From assembly GCA_005879315.1 (NCBI GenBank), contig VBLC01000073.1:1-52840 (forward strand): a stretch of DNA of 52,840 nt, in the 5' to 3' direction. Numbering within the stretch: position 1 is the stretch's first letter; the number at the start of each line of letters is the position of its first letter. This DNA comes from Deltaproteobacteria bacterium. GTDB lineage: Bacteria > Myxococcota > Myxococcia > Myxococcales > 40CM-4-68-19. This document shows positions 39,915-43,308 of this stretch, one piece after another. Both the position numbers and the translations under genes were made by a program. The notes below the pieces were generated by a model that was given only the letters and a program-made list of their open reading frames with translations, was not told where the DNA came from and made no database searches.

Positions 39915-40112
39915 AACGTGCTCGTCCTCGTGCTCGTTTTCGTGTCTCGATGGTCGAGCTCGTGCTCGTGCTCCTCTTCGTGCCCGAGTGTCGAGCTCGT
40001 GCTGGTGCTCCTTTTCGTGCCCGATCTCGAACGAGCCCCGAGCACCCGCACGGGCACGACGCCGAGCGCCAAAAACGAGCTCGAGCACGAGCACGGCAGT
40101 ACCGCGCCGCGG
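39915..40112. repeat. Hexamer-based inverted repeat (CGTGCTCGT/ACGAGCACG) in a tail-to-tail gap
   Basis: The left arm from 39917 is made of degenerate GTGCTC/GAGCTC units. CGTGCTCGTCCTCGTGCTCG is mirrored by CGAGCTCGAGCACGAGCACG just before 40096, and the flanking TTTT/AAAAA also mirror. Middle units (GTGCTGGTGCTCC, GAGCACCCGCACGG) carry the symmetry inward. It separates the methyltransferase stop from the PomX-like stop. A fold-back RNA from either strand is expected, so a two-way terminator role is plausible. No gene seen. Confidence 0.65.
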
Positions 40113-40982
40113 TCAGCGCAGCCCGGTGATGCGGGTGCGCGCCTCTGCCAGCGCGCGATGGATCTCCTCCAGCGCGCTGCGGCTCTGGGCGGCCTCGTCG
40201 ACCTCGGCGGCTGCGGCGACGAGCTGTTCGGCGAGGCGGTCGCGCTCGCCGTGCGCAGCCGATGCCTCTGCTCGCGCGTCGTCGCGCTCCTTCGCGCGCA
40301 GCTCGAGCTCCGCGGAAAGGCGCCCCATGGCCTCGCGGGCCTGCGCAGCTTCGCCGCGAGCGCGCTTCGATTCCTCGGCAGCGGCGGCCGAGCGCCCTTT
40401 CTCCTCGCGCAGCTCGCGGGAGAGGCGCGCCACTTGCGCGAGAGCGCCGTCGCGCTCCGCCTGGAGCAACTCCACTTCGGCGAGCAGGTCGCGCGCGGCG
40501 GCGGCGCGCTTCTCCACTTCGACGGCGAGCTGCTGCGACTCGGCCTTCTGCTCCCGCGACTCTTCCGCGGCCGCGCGCAGAGCACCGAGAGCGGCGTCGA
40601 GATCGGACTTGAGCCGCGCGTTGGCGTCGGCTGCGCGGGAGAGCTCGCCGGTGAGCTCGCGAGCGAGATCCGCGACTTCGGAGGCGGCGCCGCGCTTCGG
40701 CGGTGCGGCGGGCTGCGGCTCGAGCAGGCTGCGGGCCTGGGCGATGCGCGCCGCGCGGGCAGGAGGCGGTACGGCAGCAGCTCGCGGCTTCGGTTCAGGC
40801 GTGACGACGGGCTCTTCGCGCGGCGCAATTTCGGGCGGTGCGACGGCGCCGCCGTTCACCGGAGCATCGGCCGCGAGAGGCGAGCTCTCCTCCTGCTGCG
40901 CAAGGGCGAGGTCGTCCATCGCCCGGCTGAGCCGCACGCGGGGTCGTGCCTTGGGCAGGTTTTCCTCGAAGCCGCGCTTCAT
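40113..40982 (-). CDS. pomX: PomX-like coiled-coil protein (division-site positioning)
   Basis: 289 residues. The N-terminus MKRGFEENLPKARPRVRL is short and very basic, followed by a Pro/Ala-rich linker (to about residue 90) and a long C-terminal coiled coil (about 95-285). From memory, the first 22 residues of Myxococcus PomX stimulate the ATPase PomZ through Lys13 and Arg15; here Arg13 and Arg15 stand at those places. The ATG overlaps the ParA-like gene by 4 bp, and gene order HEAT protein-ParA-coiled coil matches pomY-pomZ-pomX. It is shorter than Myxococcus PomX (about 400). Expected role: cytoplasmic scaffold of the complex that marks midcell. Confidence 0.7.
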   Translation of the reverse strand: MKRGFEENLPKARPRVRLSRAMDDLALAQQEESSPLAADAPVNGGAVAPPEIAPREEPVVTPEPKPRAAAVPPPARAARIAQARSLLEPQPAAPPKRGAASEVADLARELTGELSRAADANARLKSDLDAALGALRAAAEESREQKAESQQLAVEVEKRAAAARDLLAEVELLQAERDGALAQVARLSRELREEKGRSAAAAEESKRARGEAAQAREAMGRLSAELELRAKERDDARAEASAAHGERDRLAEQLVAAAAEVDEAAQSRSALEEIHRALAEARTRITGLR

Positions 40983-41965
40983 CGTCCGCTCTCCACCGCC
41001 TTGAGGCGCACCGGTTCGCCGATGCGCTCGCGGATCTCGTCGAGCACCGCCTGGATGTCCTGAGCGCCCTTGCTCTCGGGATCGAAGGCGAAGATGGGAA
41101 TCCCTTCGCTCGAGGCCTGGGCGAACTTGGTGCATTGCCGGATGACCTGCTTGAGCAGGAATTCCGAGTAATGCTTCTCCAATGCCTCCCTTGCCTCTTT
41201 CGCGATCTTGTAAGTGGCATTGTAGGCATTGATGACGATGAAGATCTGATCGAGCACGTGCTCGAGGTCCTCCTCGAGCGACTGCACCGTCTCGAAGAGC
41301 AGCTTCAATCCATGAAAGGAGAGGAAGTCAGCCAGGACCGGAACGATGAGATCGTGCGCGGCCATCAATGCATTGAGGTTGAGCAGCCCGAAGGAAGGCG
41401 GAGCGTCGAGCACGGCATAGTCGTAGTTGCTCTCCACTTCCTTGAGCACGTTGCGCAAGCGGAACTCGCGCGCCGCCAGCGGCATGAGGGAGAGATCGAT
41501 GGTGCTCATCGAGAGGTTGGAGGGCACCAGGTCGAGGCCCGGCATGCTGGTGCGCACGATGACGTGTTCCAGCGGGGTCTTCTTGATGATGGCGTCGAAG
41601 AGCGTCCGCTCGGCCTCCTCGCCGGTGATGCCCAGGCACTTGGAGGCATGACCCTGCGAGTCGAGATCGATCATCAGCACCCGATGGCCCATTTCCGCCA
41701 GACGGAAGGCGTAGCTGCTCGAGACGCTGGTCTTGCCGGTGCCGCCCTTGAAGTTGAGGAAGAGCTGCTTGCGCATCGGCCGGCGCGGGGGCGTCCGGCC
41801 CAGCGCGTGGCGGGCGGCGGCGAGGTCTTGCAGCGAGTAGAGGGTCTTCTGCGCTGGAGCGATGCTCGACTTGACCGCGCCGCGCTCCTCGGCCTCGGCC
41901 AGCTCGTGGGGCGAAAGGCCGAGCACCTCGGCGAAGCGGCGGACGGAGTAGCGGATCTGCTCCAT
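40979..41965 (-). CDS. pomZ: PomZ-like ParA ATPase
   Basis: 328 residues. An N-terminal 60 residues look like a MerR-type helix-turn-helix (YSVRRFAEVLGLSPHELAEAE). The ParA core has a deviant Walker A, KGGTGKTS at 73-80, the A' aspartates in IDLDSQGHASK (Asp100/Asp102), and Walker B in YDYAVLDAPPSFG. ParA proteins bind DNA nonspecifically as ATP dimers. In the Pom system the ATPase moves the PomX/PomY cluster over the nucleoid to midcell. No ParB gene or parS-like site is seen, which argues against plasmid-type partition. Confidence 0.8.
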   Translation of the reverse strand: MEQIRYSVRRFAEVLGLSPHELAEAEERGAVKSSIAPAQKTLYSLQDLAAARHALGRTPPRRPMRKQLFLNFKGGTGKTSVSSSYAFRLAEMGHRVLMIDLDSQGHASKCLGITGEEAERTLFDAIIKKTPLEHVIVRTSMPGLDLVPSNLSMSTIDLSLMPLAAREFRLRNVLKEVESNYDYAVLDAPPSFGLLNLNALMAAHDLIVPVLADFLSFHGLKLLFETVQSLEEDLEHVLDQIFIVINAYNATYKIAKEAREALEKHYSEFLLKQVIRQCTKFAQASSEGIPIFAFDPESKGAQDIQAVLDEIRERIGEPVRLKAVESGR

Positions 41966-43308
41966 CAGGCGTTCCCCTCCGCGGCCACCAGCCGCTTGCC
42001 GCGCCGGCCGATGCGCCGGGCCGAAACGAGCCGCGCCGCGATCGCCACCGCTTCCGGTTCGGGCACGCCGAGCCGCTCTCCCAGCTCGGCTTCGCTCAGG
42101 CCGAAGATCGCCGACTGGACGGCGAGGATGGCGTCGCCGGCGAGATCGCGCACGGGCTCCTCCGGAGGCGGCGGCGCTTCGCGGCAGGCGGCCTCGGCGG
42201 CGGCGCGCACCGAAGCGTCCGCGTCGTGCGCCAGTCGCGCGAGAAGATCGGCGAGCCCTTCGGCCGCGGCCAGCGCGGCGGCGCGGCGGCGCACGGCAGC
42301 GGCTTCATCGAGGGCGGCAGCGTCGATCGCGGCGCGCGCGCGCGATGGGACCGTGCAGAGCGCTTCGACCGCCGCCAGCCGCACCAGCGGCGGCTCCGGG
42401 GAAGATTGCAGCTGCGCAACGATGTCCGCCGCTCCCTCGCCCCCGCAAGCCACCAGCGCTCGAGCCATCTGTGCGCGTGCCTTGGCATCGGTCTCACCGG
42501 CGAGCGTGCTGGCGAGCAGCGGCGCGGCCGCCGGCATCGGCAGCGCGGCGAGATGGCGCGCGGCCTGCTCGCGCCGCGCAGGGTCACCGGAGGAGAGATT
42601 GCGCAGGCACTGGTCGGCGAGCGCGCGCGCGGCGGCCCCCGAATCCTTGGGGGCGGCGACCTCCGGCAGCGCAGCGCCGATGCGTCCCTCGCTCCAGAGC
42701 TTGCGCGCCTCCTGCACCGGCTCGGGCTCACGCCGCTGCGGGCCCCCGACCGAATCGATGGGCGGCGGCGGCGCGATCCCTGCTTTCGCGAACTGCTCGT
42801 CGCAGCGTTGCTGGCGCTCGCGCAGCGCAATCACCTCTCCCCGCAGCTCGCTGATGAACTTCGCCAGCGCGGCCGGGGCCTCGTCTCCCATGCGCGCCTG
42901 CTCGATCATCTCGGTCAGCCAGCGATCCCGCTCGGCGCGGCCGTGATCGAGCTGGCGGCGCGCTTCCTCAAGCTCGGCCTGCAGCCGCATGGCGCGATCG
43001 CGCTCCGCTGTTGGCGATTGCATCTCGACGGCTGGACCCGCGGGACGGGCGAGGAGCGACGCCAGCCGTACGCGCTCAGCTTCCAGCTCGGCAATCTGGC
43101 GCCGGGCGATTCTGACTTCCTCGTGTGCGGCGCGCGCCTGGCCCTCTGCGCGCACCCGCTCCTGGTTGGCCGAAACGCAGCGCGACTGGGCCGCGGTCAG
43201 CTCGGCCGCGAGCTCCGACATCCGCCATTCGAAGAAGACGATCTTCTCCAACGCGGCGCGCAGCAGCTCGGCGGGAGCTGGGGTGTGCTGCGCGGGTGCT
43301 TCGGCCAC
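41965..43308 (-). CDS. pomY: PomY-like protein: coiled coil plus HEAT-like repeats
   Basis: 447 residues. N-terminal coiled coil (about 10-190), a proline-rich joint (IAPPPPIDS), then HEAT-type helical repeats (about 225-370) with recurring 'AR..AA..L.....A...L...L....D...R...A.AL', and a small C-terminal winged-helix-like domain (ELGERLGVPEPEAVAIAARLV). PomY of Myxococcus combines a coiled coil with HEAT repeats. It differs here in lacking the long proline-rich C-terminal tail. Its TGA shares a base with the pomZ ATG (TGATG). Expected to help recruit FtsZ. First gene of the operon. Confidence 0.65.
   Translation of the reverse strand: MAEAPAQHTPAPAELLRAALEKIVFFEWRMSELAAELTAAQSRCVSANQERVRAEGQARAAHEEVRIARRQIAELEAERVRLASLLARPAGPAVEMQSPTAERDRAMRLQAELEEARRQLDHGRAERDRWLTEMIEQARMGDEAPAALAKFISELRGEVIALRERQQRCDEQFAKAGIAPPPPIDSVGGPQRREPEPVQEARKLWSEGRIGAALPEVAAPKDSGAAARALADQCLRNLSSGDPARREQAARHLAALPMPAAAPLLASTLAGETDAKARAQMARALVACGGEGAADIVAQLQSSPEPPLVRLAAVEALCTVPSRARAAIDAAALDEAAAVRRRAAALAAAEGLADLLARLAHDADASVRAAAEAACREAPPPPEEPVRDLAGDAILAVQSAIFGLSEAELGERLGVPEPEAVAIAARLVSARRIGRRGKRLVAAEGNA

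Follow-up and report, generated by a model that had tools for sequence, protein, structure and literature searches.

A probable compact orthologue of the PomXYZ operon in an uncultured member of the Myxococcales

Results

Gene organisation of the locus

Three open reading frames lie on the minus strand of the window (the whole 52,840-nucleotide stretch analysed here) between positions 40113 and 43308, as the initial annotation had described; all features below are on the same strand. The first gene, pomY (41965..43308), has a GTG start and encodes a protein of 447 aa with a coiled coil, HEAT repeats and a winged helix-turn-helix (wHTH) domain, identified from its match to Myxococcus xanthus PomY, a Pfam HEAT_2 match (E = 3e-8) and an AlphaFold2 (AF2) model. 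The second, pomZ (40979..41965), encodes a ParA-type ATPase of 328 aa (Pfam AAA_31/ParA, E = 2e-46), identified from its identity to M. xanthus PomZ and its supported position in the PomZ clade. The third, pomX (40113..40982), encodes a protein of 289 aa with an N-terminal peptide (NPEP), an A/P-rich linker and a coiled coil. Its best match is M. xanthus PomX, and synteny and a shared C-terminal segment agree with this assignment. The stop and start codons of pomY and pomZ overlap by 1 nt (TGATG) and those of pomZ and pomX by 4 nt (ATGA), which makes the translational coupling proposed earlier plausible; the M. xanthus operon does not share this gene overlap.

No ParB, chemotaxis or microcompartment genes were found among the ten flanking proteins scanned. 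PADLOC matches to PomZ and PomY were weak and partial (23–26 bits, each covering a small part of a long model). The source genome encodes FtsZ, and a search of it did not find MinC. An array of tandem repeats (39917–40024; 6-base CGTGCT and 37-base units) lies in the gap that separates the end of pomX from a methyltransferase gene.

Comparison with Myxococcus xanthus and distribution among relatives

The system used for comparison is PomX/PomY/PomZ of M. xanthus (PMC7993993, PMC10307791, PMC13170346), with the operon of strain AM003 (L080) as reference. This operon has the order pomY-pomZ-pomX and encodes proteins of 697 aa (PomY), 319 aa (PomZ) and 404 aa (PomX); its PomZ agrees with all 22 of the 22 residues quoted in PMC13170346. 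The window operon has the same gene order and each of its proteins matches its own counterpart best, with 64% identity for PomZ, 30% for PomX and 31% for PomY (E = 8e-35), although low-complexity composition inflates the scores of PomX and PomY. At this level of identity, the case for orthology of these two proteins depends mainly on synteny and the presence of the NPEP and gD motifs (gD being the terminal wHTH domain of PomY).

The same order recurs across families f1–f9, and together with the N-terminal peptide of gene 3 it is found in practically all families of the order, which argues that the cluster is not a chance arrangement. Of the 116 good genomes of the class, 110 contain PomZ. On contigs of sufficient length it is nearly always preceded by PomY and followed by a PomX with an NPEP. 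Three genomes of the class that are at least 95% complete (G013, G019 and G145) lack a PomZ match at E 1e-60, possibly reflecting true absence. The window's own family consists of soil MAGs, 13_1_40CM_4_68_19 among them.

Co-occurrence of the Pom proteins has been reported in Cystobacterineae (PMC7993993). Outside the class but within the phylum, NPEP-bearing PomY-PomZ-PomX cassettes were seen in G152 (L161), G161 (L162) and G163 (L141), and further ones in three named MAGs of uncertain placement (L133, L134 and L140). PomY of G152 contains gD, while the PomY proteins of G161, G163, L133, L134 and L140 appear to be without it.

PomZ phylogeny and conserved sites

A phylogeny of PomZs and the other ParAs of the same genomes placed the window ATPase with M. 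xanthus PomZ in a single PomZ clade (support 100/99), apart from Soj-like ParAs and a second ParA group. The clade was retained (SH-aLRT 99) in a second tree, built after removal of three sequences on long branches, of which two were fragments that had been mis-translated or misplaced. Grouping with chromosome partition ATPases, which would have spoken against the PomXYZ-like reading, was thus not observed; the ParC/PpfA chemotaxis ParAs lie outside the sample of these trees. On these trees a chromosome partition ParA was rejected as the pomZ product, and membership of a ParABS system was rejected on the position outside the Soj/ParA clade and the lack of ParB among the flanking proteins scanned. 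Chromosomal ParA/Soj proteins share the ParA ATPase fold and about 30–36% identity with the window PomZ, but form a separate clade and are missing most of the Pom pocket residues.

The deviant Walker A motif KGGTGKT (41729..41749) is invariant in our alignment (A2), and the DNA-binding Lys268 is retained, as in M. xanthus. The residues of the NPEP-contact pocket are kept, the only changes being V229I and L242I. In the pocket proposed to receive the alpha5 helix of PomY, seven of eight residues are kept in PomZ of the window family (position 147 is Ser). Among 58 PomZs that pair with a PomY lacking alpha5, seven of these eight positions likewise show conservation of at least 97%, so that alpha5 is not required for the pocket to be conserved.

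PomX retains its N-terminal peptide

PomX begins with MKRGFEENLPKARPRVRLSRAM (NPEP, residues 1–22; 40917..40982), and an NPEP-like start follows PomZ in 39 of 41 relative genomes. The initial annotation had placed Arg13 and Arg15 at the activator positions. Both arginines are present; however, the activator residues of M. xanthus PomX are Lys13 and Arg15 (PMC7993993), as is also seen in the AM003 sequence, so that position 13 carries Arg in place of Lys with the charge kept. PomX of the window family is best conserved in NPEP, with a mean pairwise identity of 89% over residues 1–18 compared with 31% for the linker and 59% for the coiled coil. The coiled-coil region (residues ~100–289; 40116..40685) was delimited from alignments with M. 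xanthus PomX and within the family, and the C-terminal segments ALEEIHRALAEAR / ALESVHRALSQAT are common to both proteins. The window protein therefore has the features of a PomX, namely an NPEP with positively charged residues 13 and 15, a disordered linker and a coiled coil. It is indeed short, as had been noted (289 aa against 404 aa in M. xanthus), with a shorter linker, and in two species of the family PomX has shrunk to 205–223 aa.

PomY is compact and ends in the standard winged helix

PomY has the layout of its M. xanthus counterpart, with a coiled coil, a shorter HEAT region and a gD wHTH. The N-terminal coiled coil (residues ~12–175; 42784..43275; AF2 helices at 12–87, 98–139 and 144–175) contains the conserved start LLRAALEKIVFFE, which is common to M. 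xanthus. The HEAT region (residues 225–377; 42178..42636) is predicted by AF2 to form ten helices, about five repeats, whereas M. xanthus PomY has seven, and it aligns only to residues 226–368 of AM003 PomY. A search for solved structures close to PomY by sequence returned none.

The linker that follows (residues 378–388; 42145..42177), delimited by AF2 and by alignment with M. xanthus, comprises about 14 residues compared with about 200 in M. xanthus (210 in AM003), which leaves no alpha5 helix, and the alpha5 motif was not found in it. The whole protein is 447 aa long, against 682 in M. xanthus (697 in strain AM003). Automatic linker-length values for G005 and G007 were excluded as artefacts. 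A sister family (G015; L052/L072) is equally compact, with a PomY of ~440 aa, a 7-residue linker, gD and a PomX of 298 aa, but its PomZ is 67% identical to that of the window and its gD is nearer to the usual LRG type. The short linker may be the outcome of a loss or ancestral, and the disordered arm of PomY may have expanded later in other families instead of having been lost from the window family.

The terminal domain (residues 389–442; 41983..42144), modelled alone, is predicted as three helices followed by two strands (H-H-H-E-E; pLDDT 93.5). It matches the gD profile, of which the M. xanthus gD sequence is itself one row, and is recovered at E = 6e-16 in a search of its own genome. Foldseek matches include Listeria MarR (2qww), a Burkholderia O-methyltransferase (3mcz) and T4 MotA (1bja), all of which are also among the five best matches published for gD of M. 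xanthus (PMC13170346). These common matches suggest, at the level of predicted models, that the winged helix is an inherited PomY domain. The initial annotation was right that PomY ends in a winged-helix-like domain but had listed it as a departure from the known protein; we rejected it as a novelty, as a terminal winged helix of the same H-H-H-E-E fold is a standard domain of PomY (PMC13170346).

The gD core is absent from five of the eleven recovered operons of the family, all in the window's genus (L043, L059, L045, L046 and L047, in G001, G002, G004, G005 and G006, respectively). The deletion is in-frame, with a junction in which ..AAL is joined to RLVLEGG-type ends. The shared junction and a single change on the tree look like one event. 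No convincing free-standing gD was found in these five genomes, the one weak match being in G002 (E = 0.003).

Discussion

A compact Pom operon and its probable function

We estimate a probability of roughly 0.88 that this cluster is the orthologous pomY-pomZ-pomX operon of an uncultured member of the Myxococcales and that its function is the Pom cycle at mid-cell. ParA phylogeny, synteny, the PomX N-terminal peptide and the comparison with M. xanthus AM003 all agree on this sequence-based assignment, which bears out the PomXYZ-like cluster that was first proposed. The suggestion of a compact variant also holds in outline, in that the system is shortened, but for other reasons than those given: the winged helix is standard, and the real differences are the absence of the intrinsically disordered region (IDR) with alpha5, a HEAT region with about two repeats fewer and a PomX linker of reduced length.

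By analogy, PomX coiled coils would form a scaffold that recruits PomY through its coiled-coil and HEAT parts, and the resulting cluster would be tethered by nucleoid-associated PomZ dimers in their ATP-bound form. Stimulation of PomZ ATP hydrolysis by the PomX NPEP would then move the cluster to mid-nucleoid, where it would promote formation of the FtsZ ring. Mid-cell positioning by the window PomXYZ is what we infer from this likeness.

Which protein activates PomZ?

Among ParA/MinD systems the Pom system of M. xanthus is unusual in having two ATPase activators. Loss of either residues 496–623 (the IDR with alpha5) or residues 624–682 (gD) leaves M. xanthus PomY unable to stimulate PomZ, and the IDR/alpha5 piece and gD are each inactive alone (PMC13170346). 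Alpha5 is described in only nine PomY orthologues and the IDR is called variable (PMC13170346). In our dataset the alpha5 motif VQAALVAM occurs only in some of the Myxococcaceae, close relatives having less strict versions of it, and PomY of most families compared lacks an IDR with alpha5, so that its absence from the window protein is not disqualifying for a PomXYZ system. Many PomYs without alpha5 instead have a RVAV(V/L)E motif 24–31 residues ahead of the gD core, which may be a counterpart of alpha5. Strict matches number 12, where shuffled regions would be expected to give 0.5. Carriers, Anaeromyxobacter among them, include L036, L040, L041, L104, L108 and L129, among others. The PomY linker of the window family has neither motif.

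Applied to the window clade, the M. xanthus deletion data would predict PomX as the sole activator of PomZ. Given the absence of the IDR and alpha5, and of gD in five sisters, we put it at about even odds that PomY here activates PomZ weakly or not at all (AAP activity) and that PomX is the main activator. The broader proposal, that the whole family has a natural single-activator Pom system in which PomX alone drives PomZ and the alpha5 pocket is conserved for another reason, we hold tentatively, at a little under even. Another part of PomY could still bind in the pocket.

A serious though less probable alternative is accordingly that this orthologous PomXYZ has kept two activators, with PomY acting on PomZ through a different element (gD with the linker, the HEAT repeats or the coiled coil) in that pocket. 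Such an activity would fit the pocket conservation in PomZs with alpha5-less partners, the retention of gD in the window PomY and the RVAV(V/L)E motif in other PomYs that lack alpha5, but the pre-gD linker of about 14 residues contains neither motif, the five sisters have lost gD and yet keep the PomZ pocket, and gD of M. xanthus has no activity by itself (PMC13170346).

Other explanations for the operon

ParA/MinD ATPases serve many cargoes, and gene 2 has generic ParA family matches, as would be expected if the operon positioned chemoreceptors, a carboxysome, a plasmid or the chromosome with unrelated coiled-coil adaptors resembling PomX and PomY. We regard this as highly improbable, as the ATPase groups with the PomZs and not with chromosomal ParA, one partner carries the Pom-specific NPEP and the other the PomY-specific gD, and the neighbourhood scanned contains no ParB, chemotaxis or microcompartment genes. 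That the operon is degenerating and its function gone in the window clade, as the shortened PomY and PomX, the loss of gD in some species and the PomX of 205–223 aa in two might suggest, is scarcely credible given three open frames in every f1 genome from which the operon was recovered, identities within the family of 89% for NPEP and 80–88% for PomZ with the catalytic motif intact, and a deletion common to several species, which fits a stable variant.

Implications for the Pom system

The operon is, as judged from its sequence, a compact variant of the known PomXYZ system, with mid-cell positioning as its presumed role. The PomZ pocket is conserved also in lineages without alpha5, which makes conservation a weaker argument for alpha5 binding. 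Compact orthologues in which the activating region described for PomY is missing to a graded extent (no alpha5, no IDR, no gD) form a natural deletion series, which bears on the purpose of the second activator and on what binds the conserved pocket of PomZ.
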